This document shows, one piece after another, positions 4,446 to 47,821 of a DNA stretch of 64,000 nucleotides (position 1 is its first letter; every line of letters starts with the position of its first letter). The stretch is from the NCBI GenBank assembly GCA_029245245.1, contig JAQWPT010000004.1, forward strand, positions 1-64,000, in the 5' to 3' direction. The notes under the pieces are model-generated. The model ran no database searches and was not told the DNA's origin. It saw only the letters and a list, made by a program, of their open reading frames with translations. The stretch is from Phycisphaerales bacterium. Lineage in GTDB: Bacteria > Planctomycetota > Phycisphaerae > Phycisphaerales > SM1A02. A program made the position numbers and the translations under genes.

Positions 4446-6308
4446 ATGGCCTCCCCGATACATTCTTCCCTGCCTGCAGACCCCTCAGCCGCCCTTCATG
4501 AGCGGTTCTCGGACGCAATCGTCAGCGTTCTGGGCGAAGATTTCCGGGAGGCCGATCCCGTGATCCGAGCCACGACGAATCCCGAGTTCGGCGATTTCCA
4601 GGTCAATGCCGCGATGGGACTGGGAAAGCGGCTGAAACGGCCGCCTCGGGAAGTTGCCGAGGAACTCCTCGGCGCGGTCAACCTCGAGGGCCTCGCCGAG
4701 AAACCCGAAATCGCCGGACCAGGCTTCATCAACATTCGAATCCAACCCGCCGCGATGATCAGCGCCCTGGAAGCGATGGATGACGACGAACTGGGCATCA
4801 CGCCCTCGACCGACACCCACCCGGTGGTGATCGATCTCTGTGGCGTGAACGTGGCCAAGCAATTGCACGTGGGACACCTTCGATCGACGATCATCGGTGA
4901 TGCACTGGGACGGATGCTCGAACGGCGCGGTCGAACCGTGCTCCGGGAAAATCACCTCGGGGACTGGGGACTTCCCATCGCCATGGTGCTGCATCGACTG
5001 CGCATCGCCGGCGTCGATCTGGACACGCTGAAACTCGTCGACCTCGACTGCGCGTACCGGGACGGGCAACTCGTGACGAAGCGGGACGATCGGGGACTGG
5101 CCGTCGTCACCGAACGGAACATCGGCTCCCACCGGATCGCGGAACTCGAAGCACAGAACTCAGGAGCCCAGGAACAGCGTGACGCCGCGGCAGAGACCCT
5201 CGTGGCACTCCAGCAGGGTGATGAAGAGCTCGTCGCCGACTGGCACAAACTCATCGACTGCACCATGCGGGCGGTGGTGGACATCCTGCAAAAACTGAAC
5301 GTGGCCCTCGGTCCAGAGCACAATCGCGGCGAATCCTTCTACCGAACCCACCTGCCGGACATCGTGGACACCTTCATCGAACGCAACCTGGCCGAGGAAG
5401 ACGACGGGGCCCTGGTGGTCCGGTTCCCGAACCGGGACCGTCCCATGCTCATTCGGAAGTCCAACGGGGGATTCCTGTACGCCACCACCGACCTGGCTGC
5501 GATCCGGCACCGGGTCGTCGACGAGAACGCCGATCGGCTCATCTACGTGGTCGACGCCCGCCAACGTGATCACTTCAAGGACGTCTTCGATGCTTGCCGC
5601 ATGGCCGGATGGGGAACGACCCCGGACGGACACGACGTCGACATGGTGCACATACCCTTCGGCTCGGTCCTTGGTGTCGACAAGAAGCCGCTGAAGACGA
5701 GAAGTGGCGACAACGTCAGCCTCGCATCGCTCCTGGAGGAAGCCATCACCCGCGGACAAACTGAGGTGCACCGACGCGCCGCGGATGAGAACGCGCCGAC
5801 CCACGGCTTCTCGAAGGAACAGTTGGATCGCATTGGAGAAGACGTCGGCATCGGCGCGATCAAATACGCCGATCTCAGCAACGACCTGGTTCGCGACTAC
5901 GTGTTCGACATGGATCGAATGATCGCCTTCGAGGGCGATACCGGTCCCTACCTCCAGTACGCCCACGCGCGGATCTGCTCGATCATCGCCAAAGCGAACG
6001 AGAATCCCGCCGACGTGGCCGGAGCCGAACTGGTCCTGGATGAACCAGCGGAACGAGCCCTGGCCCTCCAGCTCCTGAGGTACGGACCGACCGTGGGTGG
6101 AGCCGCCAAGCACCTGGAGCCACACCGGATCTGCACCGAACTGCATGCGCTCGCCGAGACCTTCAACGGCTTCTACCAGCAGTGCCCGGTCCGAAAGGCG
6201 GCCTCCGATACCCTCCGCCGATCCCGGCTTCGGCTGTGCGATCTCTCACGGAGAGTCCTCGCAGATGGCCTGGGACTGCTGGGAATCGAAGCAATTCAGA
6301 CAATGTGA
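4446..6308 (+). CDS. argS: arginyl-tRNA synthetase
   Basis: This 620-residue class I aminoacyl-tRNA synthetase charges tRNA-Arg in the cytoplasm. Order of domains: an N-terminal Add1 domain (about 10-110), then the Rossmann core with a HIGH-type motif HVGHLRST in the segment KQLHVGHLRSTIIGDALG, a connective insertion rich in charged residues, the catalytic core strand containing KTRSGDNVSL, and a C-terminal DALR anticodon-binding domain ending near the EAIQTM terminus. It is somewhat longer than the roughly 570-590 residues usual for ArgS; the extra length lies in the segment around residues 190-250 after the HIGH motif. The ATG at 4446 was preferred to upstream in-frame codons because the Add1 domain starts here and the upstream stretch covers the divergent gene. 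Confidence 0.97.
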   Translation: MASPIHSSLPADPSAALHERFSDAIVSVLGEDFREADPVIRATTNPEFGDFQVNAAMGLGKRLKRPPREVAEELLGAVNLEGLAEKPEIAGPGFINIRIQPAAMISALEAMDDDELGITPSTDTHPVVIDLCGVNVAKQLHVGHLRSTIIGDALGRMLERRGRTVLRENHLGDWGLPIAMVLHRLRIAGVDLDTLKLVDLDCAYRDGQLVTKRDDRGLAVVTERNIGSHRIAELEAQNSGAQEQRDAAAETLVALQQGDEELVADWHKLIDCTMRAVVDILQKLNVALGPEHNRGESFYRTHLPDIVDTFIERNLAEEDDGALVVRFPNRDRPMLIRKSNGGFLYATTDLAAIRHRVVDENADRLIYVVDARQRDHFKDVFDACRMAGWGTTPDGHDVDMVHIPFGSVLGVDKKPLKTRSGDNVSLASLLEEAITRGQTEVHRRAADENAPTHGFSKEQLDRIGEDVGIGAIKYADLSNDLVRDYVFDMDRMIAFEGDTGPYLQYAHARICSIIAKANENPADVAGAELVLDEPAERALALQLLRYGPTVGGAAKHLEPHRICTELHALAETFNGFYQQCPVRKAASDTLRRSRLRLCDLSRRVLADGLGLLGIEAIQTM

Positions 6309-42396: not shown

Positions 42397-42425
42397 TTGA
42401 GTGATGAGGAGGCCCCCGGTACACT
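42397..42425 (+). promoter_or_regulatory. promoter of the TPR/alpha-CTD gene
   Basis: TTGAGT (42397-42402) and TACACT (42420-42425) are separated by exactly 17 bases, a good housekeeping-type promoter. It predicts a leader of about 38 bases before the GTG at 42470. Confidence 0.6.
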
Positions 42426-42469
42426 GCATGGCTCGAAACAGGGTCCAGAACCCAGACAGGAGATTCTTC

Positions 42470-43408
42470 GTGGTGGCAAATGCAGGTGACGTTCTTGACA
42501 CGATGATCGGTGGCGACGCTCCCAGTGGAAACACGGAGGAAGCAACCAGGATTCTCGAACAGGCATCCACGATGGATTCCGAGGGCGACCGCGACGGCGC
42601 GATCCAGATGCTTCGAAAGGCGGCCATGACCAATGGCCGACCGGAAGTCGTATTTCGCCTCGCCTACCTGCTGGATCTCGGCGGAGAAGAGGATGAATCG
42701 GTCGGCTACTACACACAGTTGACTCAGCTCGATCGCCCCCACATCAATGCCCTGCTGAACCTTGCGATCATCTTCGAGGATCAGGGAAACATCTCCCGGG
42801 CCGAGAAGTGCATTCGACAGGTGCTCGACACCTGCCCGTCCCACGAGCGAGCCCTCCTTTTCATGAAGGACATCCAGGCGTCTCGTGACATGTATTACGA
42901 CGAGGAGCAGGCTCGAGACGTGGCCAAGCGAAACGCCATGCTCGATACGCCTGTCACCGACTTCGAACTTTCGGTTCGTGCCCGGAACTGCCTGAAGAAG
43001 ATGCAGATTCGAACCCTCGGAGATCTTCTGAAGGTGTCCGAGGCGGAACTTCTGAGCTACAAGAACTTCGGCGAAACCTCGCTGGTCGAGATCAAGAAGA
43101 TGCTCTCGATGAAGGGCCTTCGGCTCGGCCAGAACATCGAGCACCAGTACAGCCGAGTTCGCGAGGAAATCCTCGATCAACTCAAGGGTGTGGCGTCCGA
43201 GAGTGTTCTCAACAAGTCCATCACGCAGTTGGACCTGTCGGTCCGTGCCCGCAAGGCACTGCAACTGCTGGGAGTCCAGACGGTCGGCGATCTCGCCACC
43301 AGGACCGAAGCGGAACTGATGGGCGTGAAGAACTTCGGTGCCACGAGCCTCGATGAAGTCAAGGACAAGCTTGCGTCGTTCGGGCTCACCCTTCGCATGC
43401 TCGACTGA
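42470..43408 (+). CDS. TPR protein with two RNA polymerase alpha-CTD-like domains
   Basis: This protein has about 312 residues. Residues about 20-140 are TPR-like helical repeats (AIQMLRKAAMTNGRPEVVFRLAYLL, HINALLNLAIIFEDQGNISRAEKCI). Residues about 161-221 and 251-312 each resemble the C-terminal domain of RNA polymerase alpha. Compared with E. coli alpha-CTD, the first copy keeps the DNA-contact set VRARNCLKK (Arg265, Asn268, Cys269, Lys271 equivalents) and NFGETS. The second (VRARKALQL, NFGATS) keeps the arginine but replaces Asn, Cys and Lys. The GTG at 42470 is preceded by AGGAG at seven bases; an upstream ATG at 42428 lies within three bases of the -10 element and is unlikely. A DNA-binding or polymerase-interacting regulator is inferred. 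Confidence 0.85.
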   Translation: MVANAGDVLDTMIGGDAPSGNTEEATRILEQASTMDSEGDRDGAIQMLRKAAMTNGRPEVVFRLAYLLDLGGEEDESVGYYTQLTQLDRPHINALLNLAIIFEDQGNISRAEKCIRQVLDTCPSHERALLFMKDIQASRDMYYDEEQARDVAKRNAMLDTPVTDFELSVRARNCLKKMQIRTLGDLLKVSEAELLSYKNFGETSLVEIKKMLSMKGLRLGQNIEHQYSRVREEILDQLKGVASESVLNKSITQLDLSVRARKALQLLGVQTVGDLATRTEAELMGVKNFGATSLDEVKDKLASFGLTLRMLD

Positions 43409-43409
43409 G

Positions 43410-44753
43410 TTGCCAACGTATTCCATTGCATCCCGGCTCCCCTGTGTTTCCAGGGCGGTCGCTGTGGTTGCATGCGTGGCGATTGTTTCCTGCGAGGGTG
43501 GAGACCCCGGGGATCACTCCAGCACCAGGCCCGCGCAGCAGCAGGCAGAACAGGCATCAGGCCCTCGACTGCACCTGCCTGCGATCGAGCCCGTGGTTCG
43601 TGTTCGGCTGGAAGCCGTACGTGGGCGCGGTGAGCAGATTCACGTGGGTCAGAACGGGGCGCAGATCCACATCCACGTCGGTGGTGAGCAATGGGATCCG
43701 GTTGACGGGCCGGTTCGAGTGGAACGATCCGACGGACACTGGGTCGTGCGCCACGGGAATGATGAAACCAGATCCCACGAATCGAATACCGCGCTGGTGA
43801 TCTCGGCATCGGTCCCCCTGGTCGTGGGATCGAGCAAGAGTGATGCGCATCGGTTCAACGGGGATCTGCACTGCATGCCGAACGAAGATGACTCCGGGCA
43901 CGGGTGGAATCTCATCGAGCATGTTTCCATGGAGGACTACATTCCAGGTGTGCTCATGGGCGAGTTGTATGCGGGCTGGACGTTCTCCTGTTTCGCGGCC
44001 CAGGCTGTTGCGGCCCGGAGTTTCGCCTGCATGGAGGTTCAGATGCGTTCACACCGGGACTGGGACGTGGTCGCCTCCCCAAGTTCGCAGGCCTACATCG
44101 GTGTGACCGATGACCGTACCGCTCATGAGGCGCAGGAGATGACGCGGGGCATGGTGCTGGCCTGGGGCGACCAACTCGTACCCGGGTACTTCAGCAGTTG
44201 CTGTGGTGGGCTGGCGGCAACCGCAATCGGCCGGATCAGTACATCGGCGGTCAACGATGTCCCTCCCCTGATGGGCCATGATGGCCGGGACTACTGCACC
44301 AACTCTCCGCTGTATGACTGGACCATCGATCGGTCGGCGCGGACACTCCATCGACGTGTGAATGCATGGGCTGATCACACGGGACACCGGGCGCTTGGAA
44401 GCCTCACCTCGTTGAAGTCGATCACCGTGCATGAATCGAACCGTCATGGACGGCCGACCATTCTTCGCATTACAGATCGCTCCAACCGCACCGCGGATGT
44501 GGATCTCCAGGACTTTCTCTCGGCCGCGAACTTCGATGGATCCGGTTCCCCGCCGATGCGTTCAAAACCGCTCTGGTCGGGCTGGTCCGAGGGGTCGGTC
44601 GATCGAGGTCGAGTCACACTGTCAGGCCATGGGTTCGGCCATGGGGTGGGGCTCTGCCAGTACGGGGCCCAGGAATTGGGAAGCCGTGGAAAGTCCTTCA
44701 GGGAAATTCTTTCCTGGTACTACCCCGGGGCGATGATCCACGCGGCTTGGTGA
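43410..44753 (+). CDS. SpoIID/LytB-family exported protein
   Basis: This protein of about 447 residues has a hydrophobic export segment (AVAVVACVAIVSC) that may be a lipoprotein signal with cysteine at the end. The SpoIID domain (about 190-445) has EDYIPGVLMGEL, AAQAVAARSFACM, SQAYIGVTD and the final GHGFGHGVGLCQYGAQ and REILSWYYPGA, all hallmark motifs. SpoIID enzymes are lytic transglycosylases acting on denuded peptidoglycan. Outside spores the family is widespread with unknown roles. TTG at 43410 was chosen because the preceding frame lies within the TPR/alpha-CTD gene. Confidence 0.87.
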   Translation: MPTYSIASRLPCVSRAVAVVACVAIVSCEGGDPGDHSSTRPAQQQAEQASGPRLHLPAIEPVVRVRLEAVRGRGEQIHVGQNGAQIHIHVGGEQWDPVDGPVRVERSDGHWVVRHGNDETRSHESNTALVISASVPLVVGSSKSDAHRFNGDLHCMPNEDDSGHGWNLIEHVSMEDYIPGVLMGELYAGWTFSCFAAQAVAARSFACMEVQMRSHRDWDVVASPSSQAYIGVTDDRTAHEAQEMTRGMVLAWGDQLVPGYFSSCCGGLAATAIGRISTSAVNDVPPLMGHDGRDYCTNSPLYDWTIDRSARTLHRRVNAWADHTGHRALGSLTSLKSITVHESNRHGRPTILRITDRSNRTADVDLQDFLSAANFDGSGSPPMRSKPLWSGWSEGSVDRGRVTLSGHGFGHGVGLCQYGAQELGSRGKSFREILSWYYPGAMIHAAW

Positions 44754-44802: not shown

Positions 44803-45678
44803 ATGTCTGAACACCCGGGAACACGATTGAGATCCTTGATGCGGGAAGGCACGGTGATGTGCCCCGGCGCCTTCAATGCGCTGGTGGGCAGGGCTGTGGC
44901 CGCCGCCGGGTTCAAGGCCGCCTACATCTCAGGAGGAGCGACCGCCAACAGCGCCGGTGTTCCGGATGTCGGAATGCTGACACTGACCGAAGTCTGCCGG
45001 ACGATCCGTGAAGTGGTCGAGGCCAGTGGTCTGCCCATCGTGGCCGATGCAGATACCGGCTACGGGGAAGAGGAGATGATCATCCGATCCGTCCACGAGT
45101 ACCAGCGGGCTGGCGCCGCGGGGATGCATCTGGAAGATCAGGTGTTCCCGAAGCGTTGCGGCCACCTCGATGGAAAGACGCTCGTGACCACGGACCGGAT
45201 GGTGGAGAACATCCATGCTGCGGTGACAGGGAAGGGGCACGAGGACTTTCTCCTGATCGCCCGGACCGATGCCCGCTCGGTCAACGGACTGGATGATGCC
45301 GTCGAGCGAGGCCTTGCCTACCGGGAAGCCGGTGCGGACATGATCTTCCCCGAGGGACTGGCCAACGCCGAAGAGTTCGCCGAGTTTGCACGGCGATGCC
45401 CCGGCCTGCTGCTTGCAAACATGACCGAGTTCGGAAAGACACCGGTTCTTCACGTGGATCGGTTCTCGGAAATGGGTTACGACCTGGTGATCTATCCCGT
45501 GACCATGCAGCGTGTAGCGATGGGTGCCATCACTCGCGCACTCGCGACGTTGCGTGAAGATGGTGATGTGCAGGGAATCGTCGATTCCATGCAGACAAGG
45601 CAGGACCTGTATGACCTGCTCGGGTATGTGCCCGGTGAACCCTGGACGCATCCGAGTTCAACGGCGTCCAAGGCCTGA
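44803..45678 (+). CDS. prpB: 2-methylisocitrate lyase
   Basis: This 291-residue (beta/alpha)8 enzyme of the methylcitrate cycle splits 2-methylisocitrate into pyruvate and succinate. The catalytic motif KRCGH is at 117-121, in EDQVFPKRCGHLDGK. DADTGYG (82-88) binds magnesium. The family also contains oxaloacetate decarboxylases and carboxyvinyl-carboxyphosphonate mutase, but the KRCGH motif and the adjacent methylcitrate synthase gene support PrpB. prpD or an AcnD equivalent is not in the window. Confidence 0.93.
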   Translation: MSEHPGTRLRSLMREGTVMCPGAFNALVGRAVAAAGFKAAYISGGATANSAGVPDVGMLTLTEVCRTIREVVEASGLPIVADADTGYGEEEMIIRSVHEYQRAGAAGMHLEDQVFPKRCGHLDGKTLVTTDRMVENIHAAVTGKGHEDFLLIARTDARSVNGLDDAVERGLAYREAGADMIFPEGLANAEEFAEFARRCPGLLLANMTEFGKTPVLHVDRFSEMGYDLVIYPVTMQRVAMGAITRALATLREDGDVQGIVDSMQTRQDLYDLLGYVPGEPWTHPSSTASKA

Positions 45679-45710
45679 GGTCCAGCCCGACGCCAGGGTC
45701 TCTGATCCAC

Positions 45711-45716
45711 TACAAT
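45711..45716 (+). promoter_or_regulatory. -10 element upstream of prpC
   Basis: TACAAT lies in the 113-base gap between prpB and prpC, 75 bases before the prpC start. A separate promoter for prpC is therefore likely. The -35 hexamer is weak. Confidence 0.35.
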
Positions 45717-45791
45717 CACGAGGCTCGAAACATCCACCGAACCACGGTGAGTGCTTTCCGAAGACCCCCTACGAAGATTGGATGCATATTC

Positions 45792-46940
45792 ATGACGGCA
45801 ACGACCAAGCAACCAGACACCCGCGGGCTCGCCGGCCAGACCATCGGCGACACACAGATCTGCTCGGTCGGGCAGTCGCACCTGATCTATCGAGGCTACG
45901 AGATCGCCGATCTTGCCGCCCATGCGACCTTTGAGGAAGTCGCGTTCCTGTTGATTGAAGGACGCAAGCCTTCCAGCGAGGAACTCGAAGCGTTCCGGGT
46001 TGAACTCAGCGAGTATGCCAATCCGGATCCCAGCATCATCGAACTCGTCCAGCAGATCGCACGCACATCTCCCAAAGCCCATCCAATGTGCGCTCTGCGC
46101 ACCGCCGTATCAGCCGCTTCGCATCTGGATCCCGACTGCGAGGACAACTCGCCGGCAGCCGAACTTCGAAAGGCCAAACGGCTGGTCGCGTCAATTCCGA
46201 CCATCATCGGGGCCCACCAGCGGGCTCTCGAGGGGAAGGATGCGGTCAAGCCGGATCCCTCCCTGTCCCACGCTGCAAATCTCCTGATGTGCATCACCGG
46301 CGAACGACCCGGTGAGATCGCGGCCAGGGTCATGGATGTTTCACTGATTCTCTATGCCGAGCATGATTTCAACGCGTCGACATTCACGTGCCGGGTCATC
46401 GCTTCAACCATGTCAGACATGCATTCCGCCGTCTGTGGCGGCATTGGTGCGTTGAAGGGTCCGTTGCACGGAGGTGCCAACGAGGCGGCGATGGAGATGT
46501 TGGCTGAGATCATGAAGTCGGTCGAGGGTGGAACCACGCCCGAGGCCTGGCTTGCTGATGCATTCGTCACCAAGCGGAAACTCATGGGTTTCGGCCACCG
46601 CGTCTACAAGAACGGCGACCACCGTGCCGGCATTCTTCGCGACTGGGGGATCAAGTACGCCGTGCAGGAGAACGCCGGCGCCAAGAAGTGGTTTGATCTC
46701 GGCGACGAGGTGCAGGCCATCATGCTTCGCGAGAAGAACATCCACCCCAACGTCGACTACCCATGCGGCATGACCTACTACGCCATGGGCATCCCGGTCC
46801 CGCAGTACACCCCGATCTTCGTGGCCAGCCGAGTGACCGGCTGGTGCGCCCACATCATGGAGCAGCACCAGAACAACCGGATCATCCGGCCTCTGGCCGA
46901 ATACACCGGCCCTGAACTGAAGTCCTGGGAAGGCAACTGA
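45792..46940 (+). CDS. prpC: 2-methylcitrate synthase / citrate synthase
   Basis: This 382-residue enzyme belongs to the short citrate synthase family. It condenses propionyl-CoA (or acetyl-CoA) with oxaloacetate. Conserved residues appear in GGIGALKGPLHGGANE (catalytic His), MGFGHRVYKNGDHRA (His and Arg) and IHPNVDYPCGMTYY (Asp). The N-terminal TRGLAGQTIGDTQIC segment is as in short bacterial synthases. The neighbouring prpB supports methylcitrate rather than citrate formation. The short form can be bifunctional, so substrate preference is inferred. Confidence 0.9.
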   Translation: MTATTKQPDTRGLAGQTIGDTQICSVGQSHLIYRGYEIADLAAHATFEEVAFLLIEGRKPSSEELEAFRVELSEYANPDPSIIELVQQIARTSPKAHPMCALRTAVSAASHLDPDCEDNSPAAELRKAKRLVASIPTIIGAHQRALEGKDAVKPDPSLSHAANLLMCITGERPGEIAARVMDVSLILYAEHDFNASTFTCRVIASTMSDMHSAVCGGIGALKGPLHGGANEAAMEMLAEIMKSVEGGTTPEAWLADAFVTKRKLMGFGHRVYKNGDHRAGILRDWGIKYAVQENAGAKKWFDLGDEVQAIMLREKNIHPNVDYPCGMTYYAMGIPVPQYTPIFVASRVTGWCAHIMEQHQNNRIIRPLAEYTGPELKSWEGN

Positions 46941-46963
46941 CCGGAACCCGGCGGAGTCACCAC

Positions 46964-47821
46964 ATGTCAGACGTAAGCAAATTGGCGGTCATCGGTGCAG
47001 GTACGATGGGAAGCGGCATTGCGCTTGTCGGCGCATCCAAGGGCATCAAGGTTTCCCTCATCGACGTGTCCGAAGAGCAACTGAGCGTTGCTGCGGCCTA
47101 CCACGCCAAAACGATGGATCGCAACGTTCAGAAGGAACGCATGACCCGTGATGAGGCGGACGCGGCTCTTGGACGCATAACGGGCCTGTCGAACATGGCC
47201 GACGCTTCGGATGCCGACTGGGTTGTCGAGGCCGCAACCGAGAACGCCGATCTCAAGAAGAAGATCTTCACACAGATGCACGATGTCTTCGGTGAGGACG
47301 TGGTGCTCGCGACGAACACATCTTCGATTTCGATCACTGAGCTGGCTGAAGCTGTTCCCACCGCTGCCGATCGCGTCATCGGGATGCACTTCTTCAACCC
47401 GGTTCCGATCATGAAACTGGTCGAGGTCATCAAGGGCCGGGAGACCAGCGAGCGGACTACGCAGCGAACAATCGAGTTGTCTGAGGCGATGGGAAAGATC
47501 CCCGTACCTGCCAACGATCACGCCGGGTTCGTGAGCAACCGGGTTCTCATGCCGATGATCAACGAGGCGTTTCACGCCTGGGCCGACGGGGTCGCGGAGC
47601 CGGAAAATATCGACTCGATCATGACCCTGGGGTGTGCCTTCCCGATGGGCCCCCTGCGACTGGCCGACCACATCGGCCTCGATGTCTGTCGGGACATCAT
47701 GCTCGTGATGCACCGGGGGCTGGGCGATGACAAGTACCTGCCGGCCCCGAAGCTCGTTGAATTGGTCGAACAGGGCCGCTTGGGCAACAAGACCGGCCAT
47801 GGTGTCTACGATCACGGATGA
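46964..47821 (+). CDS. hbd: 3-hydroxyacyl-CoA dehydrogenase (3-hydroxybutyryl-CoA dehydrogenase type)
   Basis: This 285-residue NAD(P)-dependent dehydrogenase has the dinucleotide fold GAGTMGSG (11-18), the catalytic His in HFFNPVPIMKLVEVI, and the C-terminal domain with NRVLMPMINEA and GCAFPMGPLRLADHIGLD. It oxidises 3-hydroxyacyl-CoA, as in fatty acid or butyrate metabolism. It lies 23 bases after prpC, so it may serve a joint acyl-CoA pathway, though its exact substrate is not set by the sequence. Confidence 0.93.
   Translation: MSDVSKLAVIGAGTMGSGIALVGASKGIKVSLIDVSEEQLSVAAAYHAKTMDRNVQKERMTRDEADAALGRITGLSNMADASDADWVVEAATENADLKKKIFTQMHDVFGEDVVLATNTSSISITELAEAVPTAADRVIGMHFFNPVPIMKLVEVIKGRETSERTTQRTIELSEAMGKIPVPANDHAGFVSNRVLMPMINEAFHAWADGVAEPENIDSIMTLGCAFPMGPLRLADHIGLDVCRDIMLVMHRGLGDDKYLPAPKLVELVEQGRLGNKTGHGVYDHG

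Follow-up and report, generated by a model that had tools for sequence, protein, structure and literature searches.

The window (the whole stretch of 64,000 nucleotides that was analysed, from a Phycisphaerales bacterium) carries a gene for a protein in which a TPR region is followed by two RNA polymerase alpha-CTDs, termed here CTD1 and CTD2 (Table 1). The mechanically called open reading frame opens at an earlier GTG (position 42401); we chose the GTG at 42470 as the start. A sigma-70 promoter scan gave no match. Pfam assigned two RNA_pol_A_CTD domains (PF03118) to the protein with 144.3 bits (E value, 8.9e-43) against a gathering score of 23.8, and TPR_19, TPR_14, TPR_7, TPR_8, and other TPR families exceeded their cut-offs. 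PF03118 occurs just three times in the host genome (2.69 Mb), twice in the TPR-CTD protein and once in RpoA (contig C6); since the sole other alpha-CTD of the genome sits in a separate rpoA, the TPR-CTD product is a free protein. A preliminary description of this DNA had proposed a TPR scaffold with two alpha-CTDs in a free protein, and Pfam, the predicted fold, and the separate RpoA agree on this architecture. A second or broken RpoA was ruled out by the lack of an alpha N-terminal domain and by the intact rpoA elsewhere, and the RpoA equivalogs of NCBIfam match mainly the CTD part, far under cut-off (for example, 140.6 versus 302). Plain helix-hairpin-helix domains were ruled out by the HHH_5 score (21.9 bits versus a cut-off of 27) together with the superposition on alpha-CTDs. 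The profile score and superposition likewise exclude chance similarity, and because the orthologues span the whole phylum, the similarity goes far beyond chance.

Table 1. Coordinates of the TPR-CTD gene, its domains, and the adjacent gene in the window
Feature	Position	Strand	Remarks
CDS, TPR protein with two alpha-CTDs	42470..43408	+	312 aa, GTG start
Shine-Dalgarno-like AGGAG	42458..42462	+	7 nt ahead of GTG 42470; read from sequence
TPR region, residues 22-140	42533..42889	+	About 3.5 repeats; Pfam, AlphaFold2 helices, structural match
TPR-CTD1 junction, residues 123-160	42836..42949	+	Contains RALLFMKDIQASRDMYYDEEQ; conserved in orthologue alignment
CTD1, residues 155-221	42932..43132	+	Pfam, fold; R265, N268, C269, G296, S299, E302, D259, and E261 kept; T298, E297
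CTD1-CTD2 linker, residues 222-241	43133..43192	+	Variable; conservation 0.30 in alignment; low pLDDT at 223-227
CTD2, residues 242-312	43193..43405	+	R265, G296, S299, and E302 kept; K268, A269
SpoIID-domain lipoprotein gene	43410..44753	+	Inferred TTG start; Pfam SpoIID E value, 2.3e-15

The TTG of the SpoIID-domain gene falls 1 nt past the TPR-CTD stop codon, a spacing that suggests translational coupling, and spoIID lies directly behind the TPR-CTD gene in the window and in most Phycisphaerales loci; the SpoIID-domain gene is a probable operon partner. Further downstream, genes of the PEP mutase/isocitrate lyase family, citrate synthase, and 3-hydroxyacyl-CoA dehydrogenase stand in a row (44803-47818, plus strand), and the PEP mutase-family and citrate synthase genes resemble a methylcitrate cycle cluster. 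A tRNA-SeC called there by ARAGORN (44838-44930, plus strand) is probably a false positive, as it falls within the PEP-mutase-family CDS and Rfam gives no match for it.

An AlphaFold2 model built with 65 orthologues (mean pLDDT, 83.9) consists of TPR helices at residues 22 to 140 followed by two alpha-CTD folds; the single domains are confident, though the pTM value of 0.44 means that their relative placement is not. In structural comparison, the TPR part matched TPR domains, including that of OGT, with Z scores of up to 15. Superposition on the E. coli alpha-CTD had been named in the preliminary description as a check, and CTD1 fits E. coli alpha residues 250 to 316 with a Z score of 13.4 and an RMSD of 0.8 Å over 67 residues (48% identity). 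CTD2, modelled alone with a pLDDT of 93.7, fits the B. subtilis alpha-CTD (1z3e_B) with a Z score of 13.7 and an RMSD of 1.0 Å over 67 residues (49% identity), and the Caulobacter alpha-CTD bound to AT-rich DNA (9zum) with 1.8 Å. Both domains are true alpha-CTDs by sequence and predicted fold. In the orthologue alignment, the junction between the TPR region and CTD1 has a mean column identity of 0.60, and its residues P123, R127, A128, D134, S138, M141, D144, and E145 are invariant or near-invariant.

The positions of the alpha-CTD that contact DNA and sigma are established for E. coli, and residues were therefore counted in E. coli alpha numbering across 179 orthologues for CTD1 and CTD2 and across 41 planctomycete RpoAs. 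In CTD1, R265, G296, and E302 are present in all 179 sequences, followed by S299 (177), C269 (174), and N268 (152), and the sigma-face residues D259 and E261 are kept in 174 and 167, respectively. Position 298 is Thr or Ser in most of them and Thr in the window protein; of the Arg/Asn/Cys/Lys set with which CTD1 had been credited, R265, N268, and C269 are thus kept, but the Lys is not. Thr298 also occurs in the host's own RpoA, as in CTD1 and CTD2 of the window, and in 40 of the 41 planctomycete RpoAs; given that K298 is missing from the host RpoA too, its absence is normal in the phylum. Position 297, in contrast, is acidic in every CTD1 (E in 166, D in 13) and Lys in 32 of 41 RpoAs, so that DNA binding by CTD1 may differ from that of RpoA; the acidic residue could weaken the binding predicted for CTD1. 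In some members of the host's order, CTD1 carries T268/A269.

CTD2 retains R265 in all 179 orthologues, E302 in 178, G296 in 175, and S299 in 174, whereas positions 268/269, mostly N/C in CTD1, are mostly K or R at the former and A at the latter. The window CTD2 has R265, K268, A269, G296, T298, S299, and E302, and against the set R265/N268/C269/G296/K298/S299/E302 it matches four of seven positions, compared with six for CTD1, the mismatch at 298 being shared by the host RpoA. CTD2 had been described as having lost all but the Arg, which is correct for N268 and C269 and overlooks the retained G296, S299, and E302. The division into one competent and one degenerate copy is likewise too simple, because neither domain has Lys298, and in CTD2 R265 is invariant (179/179) and G296, S299, and E302 are near-invariant. 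Judged by these residues, CTD2 looks modified, not defunct. Across Planctomycetota it makes up an orthologous class of its own instead of a decaying copy, although one genus has lost it.

The phylogenetic spread of the protein, also named as a check, was followed in 199 genomes sampled evenly across Planctomycetota (about 80 families), and 187 of them contain a full-length match (E value below 1e-42); exactly three PF03118 domains per genome were counted in 158 of 199. By hand count, the gene is present in all but two (G070 and G178) of the 114 genomes with completeness of 90% or more and contamination of 5% or less. Ten of the 12 genomes without a full-length match are less than 90% complete; G178 has truncated pieces of the gene at a contig end, and in G128 the gene is split over two contigs. 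No gene pieces were found in G045, G070, G105, and G158; G070, at 90% completeness, stands alone among the near-complete genomes in showing no trace of the gene. Real loss in the 12 genomes is mostly unsupported in view of incompleteness, the contig-edge pieces, and the split gene. In the sample of relatives, the gene is present in 37 of 41 genomes. Four genomes of the family without the gene also lack the adjacent spoIID, which would fit a missing stretch as well as a joint loss. Among the best 80 of 587 matches in a scan of a genome collection, Phycisphaerales bacterium UBA854 is the nearest relative that has a name (protein 89% identical); the scan does not establish a restriction to Planctomycetota, and its loci titled Limnohabitans, Cyanobacteria, and Vicinamibacteraceae are probably mislabelled. 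For G231, the one oddly titled genome that was checked, the sample drawn seems identical to that of the phylum.

In FastTree phylogenies of the CTDs from 40 genomes (about 31 families), CTD1, CTD2, and RpoA-CTD form three separate clades, with supports of 0.96, 0.85, and 0.84 in the tree that includes what we take to be the B. subtilis outgroup CTD. In that tree, a single RpoA sequence is placed apart from the RpoA clade, and in the other tree none is. The three clades indicate that both duplications and the TPR fusion are older than the radiation of the phylum. Mean pairwise identity across the 40 genomes is 71% for CTD1, 60% for RpoA-CTD, and 50% for CTD2, and CTD1 identity exceeds RpoA-CTD identity in 85% of genome pairs. 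Outside Phycisphaerales, the open reading frames are longer, often 430 to 530 aa, with extra TPR sequence. One genus (two genomes, 99 to 100% complete; loci L274 and L275) has kept TPR-CTD1 and lost CTD2, which marks CTD1 as the core. The near-universal presence of the protein and the stricter conservation of CTD1 than of RpoA-CTD suggest that a core transcription factor of the entire phylum has been overlooked.

No full-length relative of the TPR-CTD protein was found in the viral contigs, phages, and plasmids searched, and a mobile or phage gene was rejected on this ground. Short stand-alone CTDs occur in phage contigs of 205, 44, and 37 kb (L142:4773-5201, L139 at about 4914-5306, and L143 at about 4995-5219). 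In the trees, these CTDs, from three kinds of contig, group inside the planctomycete CTD2 clade, and two of their genes sit no more than one or two kilobases from a terminase large subunit gene; mimicry of the host factor's CTD2 by phages is possible. Other alpha-CTD proteins were also seen, namely, a 701-aa planctomycete protein (L295:1538-3640) with alpha-CTD-like domains and, by eye, an apparent sigma-70 region 4, and proteins of 730 to 860 aa with three CTDs in other genomes.

Across 60 loci from the whole phylum, the TPR-CTD gene is directly followed on its own strand by ruvA in 41, spoIID in three, tgt in two, and a kinase-like gene (read by eye) in two. The whole series TPR-CTD, ruvA, ruvB, queH, spoIID, tgt, yajC, and secDF, in which queH and secDF were recognised by eye in the sequence, is found in three loci, and from this gene order the TPR-CTD gene is placed at the head of an ancestral ruvA-ruvB-queH-spoIID-tgt-yajC-secDF cluster. 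In the genome with the cluster at L172:2221-17001, which runs from TPR-CTD to secDF, gyrB and a dksA-like gene lie upstream. Among the loci compared, no conserved upstream gene was found save a divergent murA-like gene (by eye) in six.

As a family of ideas, the proposed decoy or adaptor with polymerase or promoters as its target is reasonable. Within it, the reading we favor, at a probability of about 0.5, is that the protein would serve as a housekeeping transcription factor across Planctomycetota and supply alpha-CTDs in trans at promoters. CTD1 is under stricter constraint than RpoA-CTD and keeps both its DNA and its sigma faces, which argues for a promoter role paralleling that of the alpha-CTD in trans; from the strict constraint we infer contacts with conserved partners, be they DNA, sigma, or polymerase. 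CTD1 would dock through the R265/N268/C269 surface in the minor groove, immediately upstream of the -35 element, and its D259/E261 surface would touch sigma region 4, as the polymerase's own alpha-CTD does. CTD2, on its 20-residue linker, may grip DNA or a regulator at a neighbouring site. Through the TPR superhelix and the junction, the protein would bind polymerase, sigma, or another regulator as its partner and so determine where alpha-CTD-type contacts form. Against such a trans-acting factor stand the acidic residue 297, the T268/A269 variants, and the loss of CTD2 in one genus, and the nearest conserved neighbour, ruvA, is a recombination gene rather than a transcription gene.

The last point would be accounted for if the protein were a repair or recombination accessory acting with RuvA/RuvB, its CTDs being DNA-binding modules unrelated to polymerase; ruvA follows immediately in most loci, and the longer ruvAB-queH-spoIID-tgt-yajC-secDF order in three. 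However, this cluster brings together genes for recombination, tRNA modification, and secretion, and ruvCAB-queA-tgt-yajC-secDF is a common housekeeping neighbourhood. In addition, Phycisphaerales retain the TPR-CTD gene without ruvA alongside, and the domains are alpha-CTDs proper with conserved sigma-face residues, so that we regard a repair role as improbable. Somewhat less improbable, though still unlikely, is a competitor or decoy, the anti-activator of the preliminary description, whose paired CTDs would sit on UP elements or on the faces of activators that bind the alpha-CTD and thereby cut or re-route alpha-CTD-dependent activation. Free alpha-CTDs with most determinants retained would suit it, and the stand-alone CTD2-like domains of phages, two near terminase genes, look like a takeover of the same contact; near-universal presence and conservation beyond that of RpoA-CTD would be unusual for a pure inhibitor, and the conservation of the TPR junction speaks for a positive partner. 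The alpha-CTD also contacts NusA, and a TPR scaffold suits bridging, as would befit an elongation or coupling factor whose CTDs bind NusA or another alpha-CTD partner off promoters and whose TPR region bridges to the ribosome or repair. Conservation of the DNA-face residues would then lack an explanation, and we consider such a role very unlikely. The trans-acting transcription factor could, in a stronger and doubtful form, be a general and possibly essential one that adds alpha-CTDs to most housekeeping promoters and whose CTD2 phages mimic; if so, a dedicated TPR protein would share alpha-CTD function with the polymerase in this phylum.

Few regulatory surfaces in bacterial transcription have been studied as closely as the alpha-CTD, which is usually regarded as part of the polymerase. 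A near-universal separate protein with two alpha-CTDs, one under tighter constraint than that of the polymerase, would imply an undescribed layer of promoter control. A literature search, with subscription papers and supplements outside its reach, found no paper describing the TPR-CTD protein; the domain annotations are automatic, and public databases presumably hold them already. The protein places a known domain in an architecture that spans the phylum and has, as far as that search shows, no published description. Planctopirus limnophila is a genetically tractable planctomycete with a transposon essentiality data set (PMC10632474).

Compared with RpoA, the CTDs share the PF03118 alpha-CTD fold (0.8 to 1.0 Å to the best matches), about 40 to 50% identity to solved alpha-CTDs, and R265/G296/S299/E302, whereas the TPR-CTD protein has no alpha N-terminal domain, carries two CTDs behind a TPR region, and forms clades of its own, with acidic 297 in CTD1 and K/A at 268/269 in CTD2. 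The non-RpoA NCBIfam models of BREX PglW (NF033442) and of a beta'/alpha-CTD fusion (PRK14906) also align to the CTD part (44.3 bits versus 990 for the former and 26.5 bits, far below cut-off, for the latter), but these have kinase or polymerase beta' scaffolds and not a TPR-CTD-CTD order. PRK07758 (NF005841; 48.6 bits versus a cut-off of 115) is likewise an alpha-CTD without a polymerase subunit, but it is about 95 aa long and has no TPR. AfsR/SARP activators contact the alpha-CTD. AfsR/SARP of Streptomyces is a TPR-containing transcription factor acting on RNA polymerase (PMC10936776). Unlike the TPR-CTD protein, it lacks an alpha-CTD and works as an activator through its SARP domain. In the Spx/alpha-CTD complex (1z3e), the alpha-CTD similarly serves as a regulatory contact hub; Spx itself is not an alpha-CTD, whereas the TPR-CTD protein carries its own.
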